Positions 4,062 to 31,503 of a DNA stretch of 42,510 bases are shown here, one piece after another. The notes under the pieces are model-generated. The model did no database searches, had not been told where the DNA came from, and worked only from the letters and a program-made list of their open reading frames with translations. Source of the DNA: a virus. A program made the position numbers and the translations under genes. The DNA is taken from the IMG/VR virus record IMGVR_UViG_3300003937_000377, positions 1 to 42,510 of that record, one strand, 5' to 3'. Position 1 is the first letter of the stretch, and each line of letters starts with the position of its first letter.

Positions 4062-7000
4062 TCACTCCTTCTTCGGCGGCTCCTGCATTGCCCAATTAAG
4101 GGCGGACACATCACGCCCTTCTCTCTCGGCCTGAATCAAATCAATGGTCTTGTTGATTTGAGTTGAAGGAATACCGGTAGCTTGACCTGTCAGATCGATG
4201 CCAACACGCACGGCCGCCCTATCCAACTCTCCCTGCCCGGCCTGCTCATACGCGTCGTAGATGGTAGAGAACATGGTCGCGATGGCACCGCCGCCGTCGT
4301 ACCCCCTGAGATTGGCCGAGAGCTGGTTGAGCCCCGGAATGGTGCCGAGCATGCCGAATGCGCCTTCCTTGAGCATCCAAACAGCAAGATCGTCGGCGAT
4401 CCCGTCGTCGTCTTCGTCATTGGGCAGCTTGCCGCGCAATGCTGCGGTGATCAGGTTTTCCAGAACCAGCAGCATGAACATGTGGGTGCCCCACTTCAGT
4501 GCCTGCCGTGGGCTACGGAAGTTGGTCGTGCGGGTACGCTCATAGATCAGATTGCCCTTGGCAAGCATGTAGCCAGCCAGCATCGTCGTGCTTTTCACCC
4601 ATTCTGATTGACGGGTCGAGTCATTCAGCGTGCCTCGCTGAAGCGGCGTCTTGTCGACAAAGTCCTGGGAACCCTGCGCCCGTGTAACAACGTCGTCAGC
4701 GTAAGCGCGTGCTTTGGAGGTATCGCCGCCGAATTTCTCCAGGCCCACCTGCTCTGCTGCCAACCAGGTCTGCACGTCCACAATGCGCTGCACCTGCCCC
4801 ATCATCGCGTAGCCCCAACGGATCGCCGCTGCTCGGCCGGCGGCAATCCTGCCCGCCTTCGCGTCCATTACTTCCTGCACCGCGTCTGCGTGCGTCTGAG
4901 CCCGCAGGCGCATTTTCGTGGACGACTCATCAACGTATTGGTAGGACTTGCGCGGGTGACGAAGCATGTTCTGCAACGCCTGCCACATCGGCTTGGCGCC
5001 AAGGATTACAGTCGATTGGGATACGCCCGTAAGCTGCAGCATTGCCGATGACACACGCCACGTCAGAACCGCTGCTGTGAAGTTCGAGCGGAAGAATCTC
5101 GCAGCCTGTTCGGCCCACATGCGCGGCGCCATCTCGCCAGCTGCAGCATCCTGCAACCAGTAGTCCAGAGCCTTTCGAAGTTCGAGCATCCCAGTATCAG
5201 CAAGCGCTTCAGAGAACTTTTGGCCATTCAGGACGCTATGCACATAGTTCACGCCGTCGCCCAAGTAGAGGTCGCGAATTACATCCCGCAAGTGCGTATC
5301 CAGCACGTTTAGTTCCAACCTGACGGTACGCCCACCGCTACCTACGCGCTCAATGGTATGGCCATCACGCGTCTGCGCCCGCAGGTTCGCCCCAACGCCA
5401 ATCGCATTGAAATAGTCTTCGGCTTCTTCTCGAACCGTTCGCACTGAGTCAGATTGGAACTTCAGTGGGTAGTAACCTCCCTGCACGACGATGGTGCTTC
5501 CGTCTCGCGTCGTAACCGTAAAGGCTGATCGCTCAACCTTCTCCGGCGAAAGCCCAGTGCGGCGGCGCTCCGTTTCGGCGATCTGCGGCCAGTACGAGTC
5601 GATCATGTTCCACGCGCGTTGGACGAATGCCCAGTCCCTCGCGTCCAACTGCCCCAGTAGAGTTCCCACCTGCTGAGCGCTGAGACGCCCACGTACCTGG
5701 GTCAGGATCGCCTGTCGATTCCCTTCATTGCCCCAGTTCATAGCCAGGGCCAGCAGGCGCTCATGACTCCAGAGATCGCCATTGACGGATTCCATTGGCC
5801 GGGCCCGTGCCATCCGAGATAGTTCCTCTCGGCTGTAGTGAGTGCGGTAGAGATCAGCAAGTGCTTCCTGTGCCTCACGCAGCTTCAGGTCTGTCTGAGC
5901 CTGAGCGTCCCGGAGCACCCGGACGGTGTTGTCCCAAACCGGCCCCCCGTCTGTGAACCCATCGAGCTCTCTGGCGATGTCGGTAGCCGCTCCCTGAATT
6001 GCCCGGAACTGCATCAACCCGCCAAATGCGCGATCTCCAATGGAAGGAATGCCAGTTGTCGCGTTTCTCTCGCGGCTTCCGGACCTCACTGAGGCGGCCA
6101 TCTCAGCATCGATCTTGCCAGCGTCTCGCTCTTCTTTCCCCAGTCTCAAGGTGTTCTTGGTATTGGCCAGGTGAGCGATCTGCTTGACCGTATCCACGAT
6201 GTCCCTGAGGTCGGCGATGGACATGTCGCTGATGTTGGTCAGCCGCATTTCCTCCAACAGTCGTTGCGGGACGTTAATCGCTTTGCGTGCGGCGTGCTGA
6301 GCATCTACCCATTCGGCGAGGCTCTGCCGACGGCGAACTTGCGCGCCTGATATGGGTTTGACCTCAAGCCCTTCAAGCAGGGCGTCCACTTGCTCCAGGT
6401 AGTCAGCGCCAGCCTTACCCAGTTTCGACCGCGCCTTGTCGCCGGTCATCTGCTTCAGGTAGCGCTCGATCCTTCCGAACTCCTCCTGCGCGTTGCGGGC
6501 TTCAGCGAACAGCACAGCGTTCAGGGCCTGCTGCCGCTTCGCCTGCAGCGCATCGGCGTACTTCCCCGCGGCCGCCGCCTTCGCCGCCGCGCGCGCAGCC
6601 TTGCGCTCAGCGACCAGGTACTCATTGGGGCGGATCTGGCGCGCGGTCTTCTCGGCCAGCACCGCCTGCGCAACGGCCTTCAGTTCGCGTCGGTTCGGCC
6701 GCGGCTCCTTGGCGAGGTCTGCCAGCACACCCAGCTCGCGCTCCAGCAGCTGAATCTTGCGGCTGCCGTGCACGGCGTCCAACGCTCGCTGCGGCAGTGT
6801 GCCGTCGGTCATCGGCTCCCCGTGCCGGGCCTGCATGCGCGCATCAGCTTCCGCGCTCACACCCGCCAGGGTCTGCCGTACCGTCCACAGTCCCTGCACC
6901 AGTTCGTCGGCGGAACTGAAGCCCAGCAGGGTGGCCACCTCTTCGGGATGGGTGCCGCCCTTGCGCGCGTAGACCCGTCCCATTTTGTCGAGCAGGCCGT

Positions 7001-26469: not shown

Positions 26470-26471
26470 CA

Positions 26472-27092
26472 TCACGCCACCCTCCTGTTGAGCCCAGCCA
26501 TGTTCCAGAACTCCGCGCGCACGTCGTCGAGCATCACGTGGGTGTAGTGGACGCCGATGTATTCGGTCAGGCCGTCGAACAGTTCCTGGAACCGGGCCTG
26601 TTCCATCTCGTCGAATGACAGGCTCTCGGCGCGCTTGACCGGGATCGTGCGGATCTCCGGCAGCACACCGGCCAGCACCGTGCGGGCGCCTGCACCCAGC
26701 AGCGCCTCGCAGGCGTCAAGCACCGCAGCGATGACCGGTGTGGCATCCATCTCGACGGTCTCGCAGCACACGTTGGCGTCCAGCTGCAGGCGCTTCACCG
26801 CGTCGTGCGCGTCGAGCTGCTCCCAGCCATCGACGTTGTCGACCATGAGGTGGCCGATCTTGTGGATCAGCCGGTGCTGCCATTCCTCGCGCGGCTGCTT
26901 CAGCTCGCCGCGGATCTCCCGGCCCACGCGGAACTTGCGATCACGCAGCAGGCGCTGGTCGACGGCATTGGCCGGCACCAGGGCGCCCACCAGCTCGCCG
27001 GTGTTCGGGTCGATCAGCTTGGCCACGACCAGGTAGATCGGGCGGCGCGCACGCTTGGCGCGGATCTTTTTCGCTGCCGCAGTGAGGGTCAT
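26472..27092 (-). CDS. Conserved phage replication-region protein (DUF1367-like)
   Basis: The product has 206 residues. KFRVGREIRGELKQPREEWQ-type and HRLIHKIGHLMVDNVDGW motifs, then SLSFDEMEQARFQELFDGL, resemble phage DUF1367 or NinB-like proteins. The ATG at 27092 overlaps the helicase stop (ATGA). It is probably involved in DNA replication or recombination. The family call is moderate. Confidence 0.6.
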   Translation of the reverse strand: MTLTAAAKKIRAKRARRPIYLVVAKLIDPNTGELVGALVPANAVDQRLLRDRKFRVGREIRGELKQPREEWQHRLIHKIGHLMVDNVDGWEQLDAHDAVKRLQLDANVCCETVEMDATPVIAAVLDACEALLGAGARTVLAGVLPEIRTIPVKRAESLSFDEMEQARFQELFDGLTEYIGVHYTHVMLDDVRAEFWNMAGLNRRVA

Positions 27093-28402
27093 GCCGCGAC
27101 CTCCCCGAGTTCGTCGGCAGCACTGCGGTTGACGTAGGACGTCGACCCGCCGTGCCAGGTCACTGGCACCACACCGATGTTGCCGTGGCGGTTTTTCACC
27201 ACGTTGATCTCGGCCGCGGTGCGCTCTGCCTGGGGATTGGACAGGTCGCGCCACAGCATCATGATTTGGTCGGCTTCCTTCTCGATCTCCGAGCTGTCGG
27301 CCAGGTGCTTCATCTGCGGCCGCTCTCCATCGGCCTCGCGGTTCACCTGTGCCAGCGCCACCACCGGGATCCGCAGATCGCGGGCCAGGTTCTTCAGGCT
27401 GCGGGTGATGCTGCCCACCTGCTGGTGCTTCGGTGCGCGCGACATCGATGCGATCTCGATGCGCTGCAGGTAGTCGACGTAGAGCGCGCGGATGCCCAGC
27501 TGGTGCTTCCACCGGCGGGCCTCGCGCACCACCTCGGTGATGTCCGGCGATGGGCGATCGTGGATGCGCACCGGAAGCGCGCCGTACTGCTCAGCGGCGT
27601 GCAGCAGCGAGCCGACATCGTCGTGGCGGAACTTGCCGGCACGCAGTCGGCCAACGTTGACGCCCGACCCGGCCGCCAACCAGCGCAGGCCGACCTGGTC
27701 GGCGGGCTGCTCGCCAGAGATCAGGCCCACCGCCCCACCCTTCGCGCCGGCGGCAGTGGCGCCGAGCAGGAAGCCGGTCTTTCCCATCGCCGGACGGGCG
27801 CCAACGATGATCAGGTCGCTGTCGTGGAAGCCGCCCAACGCCTCGTCCAGGTCGAAGATGCCGCTGGAGACGCCGATCAGCTTCCCACCGTTGCGTTGCG
27901 CTTCCATGGCCTGAGCCACAGCAGCATCGAGCGCCGACTGCGAGGTGTGTTCGTAGCTGCGGTCGGCGGTGTGCAGGGTCATCAACCGCTGGATCGCGGC
28001 GTCGACCGCGTCCTCCTGCCGAGCCTGCGCGCCTTCCTGCAGCTCGCGGGCGATCGCCAACGCCTCACGGTCGCGCCATGCGGCCAGCAGGATCGACGCT
28101 TGATAGGCGGGCTGGCTACTGGGGTACAGATCGCGGTCGACGCCGATCAGCATCGCCAGCTCGCTCAGTCGCGGGCTGCCCATGCGGTCGGCCACGTCCG
28201 AGATCGTCACCGCGTCCACCGGCTTCCCGCCGGCGTCCATGCTGCGGATCAGCTCCCACAGCTGGCCGTGCGCCTCGTTGCCGAAGTGACCCGGCTGCAG
28301 CGGCATGTCGGCGATGCTGGACGGGCGGCACATCGCCGTGTGCAGCACTTGGCGCTCGACCTGGTGGATGGCGGCGCGATGGTTGGCTTCGACGGTCGTC
28401 AT
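27089..28402 (-). CDS. DnaB-type replicative helicase
   Basis: The product has 437 residues. It has the small N-terminal domain (about 15-110), a linker, and a RecA-like ATPase with Walker A GARPAMGKT (201-209), Walker B ALYVDYLQ (306-313), then VVALAQVNREADGERPQM and EKEADQIMMLWR. It unwinds DNA at the phage origin and is coupled to the initiator gene upstream (ATGA overlap). Confidence 0.92.
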   Translation of the reverse strand: MTTVEANHRAAIHQVERQVLHTAMCRPSSIADMPLQPGHFGNEAHGQLWELIRSMDAGGKPVDAVTISDVADRMGSPRLSELAMLIGVDRDLYPSSQPAYQASILLAAWRDREALAIARELQEGAQARQEDAVDAAIQRLMTLHTADRSYEHTSQSALDAAVAQAMEAQRNGGKLIGVSSGIFDLDEALGGFHDSDLIIVGARPAMGKTGFLLGATAAGAKGGAVGLISGEQPADQVGLRWLAAGSGVNVGRLRAGKFRHDDVGSLLHAAEQYGALPVRIHDRPSPDITEVVREARRWKHQLGIRALYVDYLQRIEIASMSRAPKHQQVGSITRSLKNLARDLRIPVVALAQVNREADGERPQMKHLADSSEIEKEADQIMMLWRDLSNPQAERTAAEINVVKNRHGNIGVVPVTWHGGSTSYVNRSAADELGEVAA

Positions 28403-29244
28403 GCGCTGAGCCTCGGCAGTGCGCCCTTCTGCGGTGCCGGCGCAGCACCCGGCCGCGTCGGCGCTTGGTTCTGCGCGCGGCTCAGCCAGGAATTCACGAA
28501 CCGCATTGCACCGCTACGGGTTTTCCGGTTCTTCGGGTTGGAGATCGTCCAGGCCTTGATCGCCCGCAGGGTCTGCATCACGTCGATGGCCGGGTACAGC
28601 TCGGCGAACTCACGGACCTGGGCCTCGGTGATTTCGAAGTCCTTGCCGTCGTTCAGCAGGAAGCTGACGGCCACTGGCGAAGCAGGCTCCGGTGGAAGCA
28701 GGTCAGCAGCCGGAGCCGGCTCGGCCGGCGCAGCGCAAGTGGTTTGGTTTGGGTTCTCTCTGGGTTGGGTTGGGTTGGGTTCTGTTTGGGCAACCGTTGG
28801 GGGAACCGTTTCAGAAACCGTTTCTGCAACCGTTTGGAGAACGGTTCGGTAGTCGTTACCCAAGTGCTTGACGTACTTCAGGATTGCGCCGGCAACGCGG
28901 GCCTTTGCTTCCCCTTTTGGAAGCGCCTCGAACTCCGCCATGCGCGCTGCCGCCACGTTGCCGTTGGCGACCTTGTTCCAGCGCAGGAATCCGGGCAGAA
29001 AAACAACCCCTTCGAAACGGTATGCGAAACCGTTTCGAGACAGTTCGGCAAACCCTTCCGAAACCCTTTCCAGAGACCACCCGAGGTCGGCCATCACGTA
29101 GCCATCCGGGCAGCGGTAGCAGCCCAGCCCGTTCGAGTGGGGGCCGGTCATCAGGTAGGTGGCTAGCAGCTTGCCGGCGTCAGTCCACTCTTGGGCATCC
29201 TGGCTCTGCCAGAACGCGCACTGGATCTGTCCGTACTCACGCAT
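28399..29244 (-). CDS. Replication initiator (lambda O-like) containing origin iterons
   Basis: The product has 281 residues. The N-terminal half looks like a winged-helix DNA-binding domain (WTDAGKLLATYLMTG, VMADLGWSLERVSEGFAEL). A Thr/Val/Pro linker follows (about 130-165), and a C-terminal helical domain (AELYPAIDVMQTLRAIKAW...) could bind the helicase. The ATG at 29244 gives MREYGQIQC. Inside its coding DNA lie tandem 12-bp repeats, like the origin within lambda O. The helicase gene follows directly, as with O-P type systems. Confidence 0.8.
   Translation of the reverse strand: MREYGQIQCAFWQSQDAQEWTDAGKLLATYLMTGPHSNGLGCYRCPDGYVMADLGWSLERVSEGFAELSRNGFAYRFEGVVFLPGFLRWNKVANGNVAAARMAEFEALPKGEAKARVAGAILKYVKHLGNDYRTVLQTVAETVSETVPPTVAQTEPNPTQPRENPNQTTCAAPAEPAPAADLLPPEPASPVAVSFLLNDGKDFEITEAQVREFAELYPAIDVMQTLRAIKAWTISNPKNRKTRSGAMRFVNSWLSRAQNQAPTRPGAAPAPQKGALPRLSA
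28792..28846. repeat. Origin-like iterons, cluster 1 (12-bp period)
   Basis: The core AACCGTT occurs at 28792, 28804, 28816 and 28828, and its inverse AACGGTT at 28840: exactly 12 bases apart each time. They encode the TV-rich linker of the initiator. A TTGGGT-rich stretch lies directly next to them. Confidence 0.8.
29016..29068. repeat. Origin-like iterons, cluster 2
   Basis: AACGGTA (29016), AACCGTT (29028) and weaker variants near 29040, 29051 and 29062 repeat at 11-12 bases. The encoded amino acids are not a repeat like that of cluster 1, so the likeness is at DNA level. Confidence 0.6.
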
Positions 29245-29440
29245 GGGACACCCCCATCCGCTGTTCCATGGCCCGCACCTGCTCCGGGGAACGTGCCAGC
29301 ACCGAAGCGCGCAGTTCGCTCCACAGGCGCCGCAGTGCCAAACGGTCGCCACAGGACCGGGCAACCCGCATGGCAGCCGCAAGCTCGCGGATGCGACGCT
29401 CGCGCTGCTCGTCCGCCAGGTTGATCGTGTTGGCGGTCAT
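29237..29440 (-). CDS. Small helical phage protein, unknown function
   Basis: The product has 67 residues, strongly basic and helical (LADEQRERRIRELAAAMRVAR). The ATG at 29440 overlaps the upstream stop (ATGA) and the gene's end overlaps the initiator start by 8 bases. It may bind DNA or assist the initiator. The family is not recognised. Confidence 0.6.
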   Translation of the reverse strand: MTANTINLADEQRERRIRELAAAMRVARSCGDRLALRRLWSELRASVLARSPEQVRAMEQRMGVSHA

Positions 29441-29802
29441 GGCCACTTGACCCCCAGGCTCTTGGCCAGCGGCTCGATCGCCGCCACCAGCTTGGTGAAC
29501 TGCGCGATGGCCTCCGCGTGCTGCGCCTCCGGCGAGATCAGGTAGCGCTCGACCAGGTAGTGGATAGGCGTAACGTCCTTGGTCTCGTCGACGTAGCGCT
29601 CGAAGTCATCGATGGACAGCCCGCGCGGCTTGCCGCTGCTATCGCAGCCGGCCAGCTTCTCGCTCAGCTTCGACGGGGCCATGTCGAGCCGGCCGGCCAC
29701 TGCCGTCACGCCCGCGCCGGCATACACCTGGGTCGCGATGTGCTCACGAAGCGAGCGGCTGCGGGCCACCGCGTCGTCGTAGGTAATTGTTAGGCTTTTC
29801 AT
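29437..29802 (-). CDS. CII-like transcriptional regulator
   Basis: The product has 121 residues. A helix-turn-helix (about 32-52: VTAVAGRLDMAPSKLSEKLAG) is followed by LSIDDFERYVDETKDVTPIHYLVERY, the layout of phage CII-family regulators. It is the first gene of the leftward early block, as cII is before O and P in lambda. A GGGA sits 7 bases before the ATG. It may activate the repressor or integrase promoter. Confidence 0.65.
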   Translation of the reverse strand: MKSLTITYDDAVARSRSLREHIATQVYAGAGVTAVAGRLDMAPSKLSEKLAGCDSSGKPRGLSIDDFERYVDETKDVTPIHYLVERYLISPEAQHAEAIAQFTKLVAAIEPLAKSLGVKWP

Positions 29803-29839: not shown

Positions 29840-29858
29840 GTTCCCCTGCGTTCCCCTG
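29840..29858. repeat. Direct repeat upstream of the CII-like gene
   Basis: GTTCCCCTG occurs twice (29840-29848 and 29850-29858), ten bases apart. It lies next to a weak minus-strand promoter candidate (TTGACC 29836-29831, 19-base spacer, GATAAC 29811-29806). It could be a regulator site. The rest of 29803-29903 shows no gene. Confidence 0.45.
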
Positions 29859-30795: not shown

Positions 30796-31503
30796 ATGGC
30801 TGAAATGCACCCTTCGATGAAACGGCTCTACGCCGCCGCCGCTCACCTCGACTCGCCCATCCGCGGCCAGTCAGCCGTGGCTCGGGCGTTGGGCCAGTCG
30901 CCGCAGACGCTTAAGAACTGGGAAAGCCGCTCTACCGGCGTCTCCGCCGCAGGCGCCAACAAGGCGCAGCAAATGCTGGGCATCAACGCCACCTGGATAC
31001 TCGAGGCACAGGCCCCGATGCTTATCGGTGGTCCTGGTCCTGGTCCTGGTCCTGGTCCGGTCTCCGGTTCTGCGACGGAACGTGACTATGTTCGCGTTCA
31101 GCAATTGGACGCGGAGGCAGGTATGGGCGACGCAGTAGAGAACGTCGATTACCCGGAAGTGATCCGGGCCATCGATTTCGAACCCGGCTACATCCGGAGC
31201 ATCGTTGGCTTCGTGCCTGCACCAGGACGGTTGAGGCTTATCACAGGCAACGGGGACTCGATGCAGCCTGTGATCCAGCCGGGGGATGCCGTGGTGGTTG
31301 ATACCGGAATTACTTCCTTCGACGGCGACGGGATCTACCTCATCAACATGGGCAACGGACAACAGATCAAGCGATTGCTGGATCGGGGTGTGATCCATGT
31401 CGCCAGCGACAACAAGAGCTATGGCGACCCGTTCCCGATGCCAGATGGAACGTTGATCGGGGGGAAGGTGTATCTGCGCAACAGGATCGAGCGTTTCAAC
31501 TGA
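30796..31503 (+). CDS. CI-like repressor with S24 peptidase domain
   Basis: The product has 235 residues. An N-terminal helix-turn-helix (about 24-45, QSAVARALGQSPQTLKNWE) is joined by a Gly-Pro repeat linker (78-88) to a LexA-type S24 domain with nucleophile S155 (GDSMQP) and general base K192. Ala108-Gly109 is a likely self-cleavage site. RecA-stimulated self-cleavage would trigger induction on DNA damage. AGGA lies 9 bases before the ATG at 30796. Confidence 0.9.
   Translation: MAEMHPSMKRLYAAAAHLDSPIRGQSAVARALGQSPQTLKNWESRSTGVSAAGANKAQQMLGINATWILEAQAPMLIGGPGPGPGPGPVSGSATERDYVRVQQLDAEAGMGDAVENVDYPEVIRAIDFEPGYIRSIVGFVPAPGRLRLITGNGDSMQPVIQPGDAVVVDTGITSFDGDGIYLINMGNGQQIKRLLDRGVIHVASDNKSYGDPFPMPDGTLIGGKVYLRNRIERFN
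31030..31058 (+). repeat. GGTCCT hexanucleotide repeat in the repressor linker
   Basis: Almost five copies of GGTCCT encode a Gly-Pro repeat between the DNA-binding and peptidase domains. Copy-number changes would stay in frame. Confidence 0.85.

Follow-up and report, generated by a model that had tools for sequence, protein, structure and literature searches.

The window analysed here is the whole 42,510-nucleotide stretch of viral DNA (IMG/VR record IMGVR_UViG_3300003937_000377, positions 1 to 42,510). It carries an initiator gene with a helicase gene and a recombination mediator gene downstream and a regulator gene upstream, and the initiator gene itself contains two clusters of short palindromic sites and a strand-asymmetric tract.

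26472 to 27092, minus strand: NinB/Orf-like recombination mediator gene, downstream neighbour (PHROG 319, E = 2e-24)
27089 to 28402, minus strand: DnaB-like replicative helicase gene (DnaB_C, E = 1.7e-63; PHROG 19, E = 6e-73)
28399 to 29244, minus strand: initiator (replisome organizer) gene, 281 amino acids, assigned from its translation, PHROG 1701 and AF2; AF2 models predict a winged-helix N-domain (residues ~1-125), a disordered linker (~143-189) and a C-domain (~190-262)
28740 to 28790, minus strand: strand-asymmetric tract just 3' of the iterons (codons ~152-169), proposed opening or single-strand element
28762 to 28779, plus strand: GGGTTGGGTTGGGTTGGG, the sole G3 quadruplex motif of the window, not strictly kept in relatives
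28792 to 28846, minus strand: five AACSGTT palindromes with a period of 12 bp (codons ~133-151, repeated Thr-Val)
~29005 to 29070, minus strand: second site cluster, in the codons of the recognition helix (amino acids 58-70) and wing (75-82) of the AF2 model, with GAAACGGTATG at 29014, the perfect palindrome GAAACCGTTTC at 29026-29036 and GAAACCCTTTC at 29060
29437 to 29802, minus strand: CII-like regulator gene, upstream and in the same operon direction (PHROG 101, E = 1e-4, a weak match)

The start of the helicase gene overlaps the end of the initiator gene by a few bases. The N-terminal half of the initiator matches PHROG 1701 (E = 1e-25; E = 7e-26 for the N-domain alone), and the same PHROG is matched by 56 of the 57 N-domains aligned from initiators with arrays and from related ones. 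This PHROG is labelled "DnaD-like helicase loader"; the likeness to these proteins is a profile match of the N-domain, and the loader role is what the annotation label suggests. The AF2 model of the full-length initiator has a pLDDT of 64.6, and the N-domain, modelled with 57 sequences, is confidently predicted to be a winged helix (pLDDT 92.6) with its recognition helix at residues 58 to 70 and wing strands at 75 to 77 and 80 to 82. The top five Foldseek matches to the N-domain model are plasmid RepA-type initiators (4pql, 4pt7, 5kbj). These matches are weak (E 0.012 to 0.065) and the Pfam RepA_N profile gives no match to the window N-domain; thus, membership in RepA_N is not claimed. A sequence search of the PDB with the initiator gave nothing convincing, and a near-DNA search among named phages returned zero matches.

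Short tandem repeats also occur upstream of the initiator gene. In the gene of a CI-like repressor, 5.8 tandem copies of TGGTCC (31029 to 31062) encode the GPGPGPGPGP string that separates the HTH part from the S24 peptidase part, and two tandem copies of GTTCCCCTGC (29840 to 29858) lie just upstream of the CII-like gene, representing a possible operator or chance.

Site clusters and tract inside the initiator gene

A previous, sequence-only reading of this DNA had placed AACCGTT cores at 28792, 28804, 28816 and 28828 and a further core at 28840, and we confirmed both these positions and their spacing of exactly 12 bp. The last core, AACGGTT, had been described as an inverse copy, which does not hold. 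The whole unit is an odd-centred palindrome, GAAACSGTTTC, in which the centre base (C or G) is the wobble position of a Thr codon (ACC or ACG) followed by GTT for Val. Because AAC-S-GTT is palindromic, the core at 28840 reflects a synonymous wobble change and not a separate orientation; in relatives, C and G are interchanged at the identical centre position. The window contains eight AACSGTT sites versus 1.84 expected (eight or more in 0 of 100 shuffles), six of which are in the initiator gene and the other two at 5433 and 21009. Array copy number differs among relatives by whole four-amino-acid units (five versus four). Two distant relatives (L013 and L017) have only two exact cores, an observation that counts against an origin at this site.

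The second cluster, previously given as 29016 to 29068, is real, but its description as more iterons was too simple. It spans codons 58 to 84, where the recognition helix and wing are encoded, and is degenerate, with a single exact core (29028 to 29034) that falls within GAAACCGTTTC. Across the AACSGTT set, an exact core was found in the recognition-helix/wing region of 25 of 39 initiators. That codons for the predicted recognition helix may double as candidate sites of the same protein is the least expected part of this arrangement.

The TTGGGT-rich stretch that had been noticed beside the cores was located at 28740 to 28790, where it constitutes the top-scoring tandem repeat of the window. 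Its coding strand reads (CCCAA)n and is nearly T-free, with an AT skew of +0.79 versus +0.13 for the initiator gene. At a GC content of 0.53 versus 0.656 for the phage, the tract is AT-richer than the phage yet not AT-rich, and for this reason we refer to it as a putative opening element. A T-poor coding strand directly 3' of the array is found in 37 initiators with AACSGTT arrays and 55 with AAGSCTT arrays (see below), with median AT skews after the arrays of 0.47 and 0.55, respectively, versus 0.07 and 0.09 for the remainder of the gene. The 6-bp periodicity of the tract exceeds that of every other window of the gene in 31 of the 37 and 48 of the 55, and its protein readings vary (QEQEQE, QDQDQD, GTGTGT, EPEPEP, PTPAPT). 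In lambda, where the opened A+T-rich region is described in a review as strongly strand-asymmetric (PMC5043065), the stretch after the iterons has an AT skew of +0.53 on the O coding strand. The tract of the window occupies the position of lambda's DUE and likewise has an excess of A over T.

A G-quadruplex was considered as the defining element of the tract and rejected: relatives break the G3 motif and other initiators have CAGGAA-type tracts, so a quadruplex is not a general feature.

Constraint on the DNA of the repeats

Several tests show that the repeats are constrained as DNA and not as protein. When the protein was kept fixed and synonymous codons were redrawn from the usage of related helicase and initiator genes, the six AACSGTT sites were reached in 0 of 20,000 resamplings (mean 0.16), and a motif-free statistic was reached in 1 of 5,000. 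In the linkers of 11 relatives, Val is encoded by GTT in 49 of 51 cases (24 of 324 in helicase genes), Gln by CAA in 18 of 18 (25 of 250) and Glu by GAA in 20 of 21 (63 of 284), and windows of rare codons coincide with the second cluster, the array and the tract. Where an amino acid is shared, the fraction of identical codons reaches 0.976 in the tract (the highest of the gene), 0.882 in the second cluster and 0.843 in the array, compared with 0.717 elsewhere in the gene; a difference of this size was equalled in 6 of 287 shifts of the three-part mask, which counts against an origin at this site. In ten whole records of relatives, all close pairs of cores fall within one cluster per genome, and the reversed-pattern control gave 0. 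The check proposed in the sequence-only reading, conservation of the DNA while codons vary, was thus positive on the grounds of synonymous conservation, codon bias and resampling.

The reading frame provides further evidence. Among 39 non-redundant initiators, cores occur 67, 84 and 70 times in frames 0, 1 and 2, where they are translated, depending on the frame, as TV, NGS/NRF or PL/RL/RF. What is conserved is thus the DNA, whichever peptide it encodes.

These observations bear on the possibility that the repeat matters at the protein level, with the Thr-Val-x-x and Asn-Pro-Thr-Gln strings acting as a linker that is flexible or makes contacts, and the period in the DNA arising as a by-product of codon duplication. 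The units are in frame, lie in the disordered linker and vary in number by whole four-amino-acid steps, as this would predict. However, synonymous sites are frozen to rare codons, resampling fails to give the array, other initiators read identical DNA in all three frames, and the residues encoded by the second cluster are different ones that belong to a folded domain. We consider this explanation extremely unlikely, and reject a repeat maintained for the protein only on the codon and frame evidence.

Exchange of the N-domain and classes of sites

Natural recombinants replace the N-domain and its repeats together. A Stenotrophomonas maltophilia prophage (L018) shares 88% identity with the window from 26470 to 28739, has no detected similarity from 28740 to 29223, and resumes similarity at 29224; in a second case (L027), similarity to the window breaks at 28737. 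Both have lost the N-domain, the two clusters and the tract as one block. In its place, they have a different N-domain (PHROG 16167/1408) along with their own purine-rich tract and their own repeats, ACGCGT at 11 bp in L018 and CTCAGTGAGT-like at 11 bp in L027, in the N-domain and linker both. A third initiator (L037), found via its C-domain, has AAGSCTT at 12 bp, again in the N-domain and linker. The repeats travel with the DNA-binding domain as one unit, as expected if that domain reads them.

The two chimeras with different N-domains have their breakpoints (28739/28740 and 28737) at the 3' border of the tract, which might indicate that array and tract serve mainly as a junction at which phages recombine the N-domain of one initiator with the C-domain of another. 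But the replaced block includes the repeats, which are completely different afterwards and thus are not the shared homology, and a junction leaves both the 12-bp palindromes and the second cluster in the winged-helix domain unexplained. As the main explanation a junction is scarcely credible; such a role may be a side effect of the array and tract.

HNH-like sequences were observed at two related loci. In the L018 prophage, an extra HNH-like frame, recognized by eye at ~5165 to 5535 upstream of the initiator, is absent from the window and may have come with the swap. On the contig of another locus (L015), an initiator relative (L062:5001-6026) has an inserted HNH endonuclease domain at about residues 150 to 205, which separates the winged-helix domain from the linker encoded by the tract.

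A scan of IMG/VR contigs for three AACSGTT cores at 12-bp spacing, made with no protein reference, gave at least 80 loci. Among the matches listed, 44 of 65 array-covering ORFs of at least 100 amino acids are initiators according to a profile of the N-domain only; about 10 of the 44 are already known near relatives and about 34 are additional. Because one round of extension of this profile used hits from that scan set, the E-values of distant members are on the generous side. The reversed motif, used as a control, gave 22 loci, with initiators in 1 of 21. In scans for three AAGSCTT and three ACGCGT sites, the matches listed include 76 and 79 loci with an ORF, respectively, of which 57 and 69 hold initiators. 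Most genes of the ACGCGT class have sites at nucleotides 194, 205 and 216, in the codons for "SRVLDAL.TRGF", and again at ~350 to 400. An exact array was the criterion by which the AAGSCTT and ACGCGT loci were chosen, so the sites in their winged-helix region are not independent evidence; they support the layout, with a biased count. Unbiased cases of the two-place layout are the relatives of the window together with L018, L027 and L037, all found by protein similarity.

Placing 99 N-domains in a tree, in which many branches are weak and long, reveals that the AACSGTT/AAGSCTT label needs 5 changes versus 32.6 when shuffled. Residue 60 is mostly Arg, Thr or Gln in the AACSGTT class and Ala or Gly in the AAGSCTT class, and is a first candidate for a residue that could read the third base of the site. 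The sole initiator from the reversed-motif scan (L169) has a TTGSCAA array read as APWQAPWQAPWQ, and may belong to a further specificity class and not reflect chance.

A candidate origin and its known counterparts

We consider it very probable that this segment is an origin of theta replication that lies within the gene for the initiator acting on it, with the predicted N-domain binding the palindromes and the C-domain placing the helicase. A phage origin here, with the encoded initiator as the iteron-binding protein, was the central proposal of the sequence-only reading, and it gains support from the PHROG 1701 match, the predicted winged helix, the DNA-level constraint and the co-change of N-domain and repeats in recombinants. 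As in other origins of this kind, multiple initiator-type repeats are found in the linker-coding part of the initiator gene. GC skew across the site shows no clear turn and offers no usable origin signal, which counts against this interpretation.

In the mechanism that we propose, the winged-helix N-domain, probably as dimers, would bind the GAAACSGTTTC palindromes of the linker array, whose 12-bp spacing would set them about one helical turn apart, and would also bind the cluster ~190 bp away inside its own recognition-helix codons. Binding over this ~280-bp segment may distort the region and open the adjacent T-poor tract, and the C-domain could then place the DnaB-like helicase encoded downstream on the exposed strand.

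An origin within an initiator gene is an already known kind. In lambda, the origin lies in the O gene and has a purine asymmetry (PMC5043065). As in lambda, the iterons of the window are inverted repeats located where the central part of the initiator gene encodes the linker, and a tract whose coding strand is richer in A than in T follows on their 3' side. On the other hand, the period of 12 bp is unlike that of lambda, as previously remarked on the basis of a value of about 20 (the measured lambda spacings are 20, 24 and 23 bp), no second cluster is annotated in the N-domain of lambda O, and the tract of the window is not AT-rich. An hhalign comparison of the window N-domain profile (A2) with lambda O gave a probability of 0.4%, that is, no detectable homology, and the two belong to different PHROGs. 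No P-like gene was found among the neighbour genes scanned, and the next gene encodes a phage DnaB-like helicase. Judged by the comparison with O and by the neighbour genes scanned, the system of the window is not the lambda O/P replication system. With no P-type gene seen and a DnaB-like helicase gene adjoining, gp38/oriL of Bacillus phage SPP1 and the staphylococcal plasmid pSK41 are closer models.

SPP1 gp38 is a replisome organizer, with the direct repeats of oriL and a DUE inside gene 38 and a phage DnaB-family helicase (PMC6316719). The window likewise has repeats within a replisome-organizer gene and a phage-encoded DnaB-family helicase, a likeness of layout; SPP1 additionally encodes a distinct loader, gp39, and contains oriR as another origin. 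The RepA_N initiator of plasmid pSK41 has a winged-helix N-domain, Rep boxes in the middle of the rep gene, an origin-encoded linker and a separate C-domain, and the pPR9 chimera is a natural swap of N-domain and origin (PMC5703833). All four elements of the pSK41 arrangement have counterparts in the predicted initiator of the window, with a weak fold match. The pSK41 Rep C-domain binds DnaG, whereas the neighbour of the initiator gene in the window is a helicase gene.

The palindromes could also be operators, bound by the initiator or another phage regulator to repress or time the replication operon, with replication starting elsewhere. Winged-helix dimers on palindromes are, in general, typical of operators, and initiators often autoregulate. 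However, the sites lie hundreds of bp inside the gene, and the nearby intergenic and repressor/regulator stretches contain no exact core. The absence of a sigma-70-like promoter near the gene is uninformative, as the test is weak. Moreover, the lambda and SPP1 origins are equally placed, with iterons and an adjacent DUE (PMC5043065, PMC6316719). We regard operators as highly unlikely to account for the clusters.

Searches of the open-access literature revealed no precedent for several aspects of the origin reading: palindromes at a 12-bp period as a class of site, a paired cluster within recognition-helix codons, evidence from several reading frames, and the wide range of phages concerned. More broadly, there is perhaps an even chance that these loci represent a widespread, apparently undescribed origin plan. 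In this plan, the recognition-helix and wing codons would form a second array of the protein's own sites, which would be exchanged as one cassette with the linker array and a periodic low-complexity tract (EQEQEQ, GTGTGT, TQPNPTQP), and distinct families of N-domains would have AACSGTT, AAGSCTT or ACGCGT within a common layout. In that case, gene sequence alone could be enough in many phages to locate the origin and to tell which site is recognized. Most phages that are known solely through metagenomes have no mapped origin, and here a probable origin, a candidate site and an initiator can be named from sequence. The three specificity classes and the natural swaps provide material on how a recognition helix and its target may change together when written in shared bases. 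Many replication proteins of phages contain odd low-complexity strings, for which translation of origin DNA would be an explanation.

Regular repeats were also seen in the initiator linkers of named phages. The linker of Gordonia phage William (L296) contains GAAGGTTTGCCC-like repeats at ~12 bp, and that of Acinetobacter phage A3926.3 (L297) has AAGCCCCTTC at 11 bp followed by a periodic tract, which suggests that there are more specificity classes.
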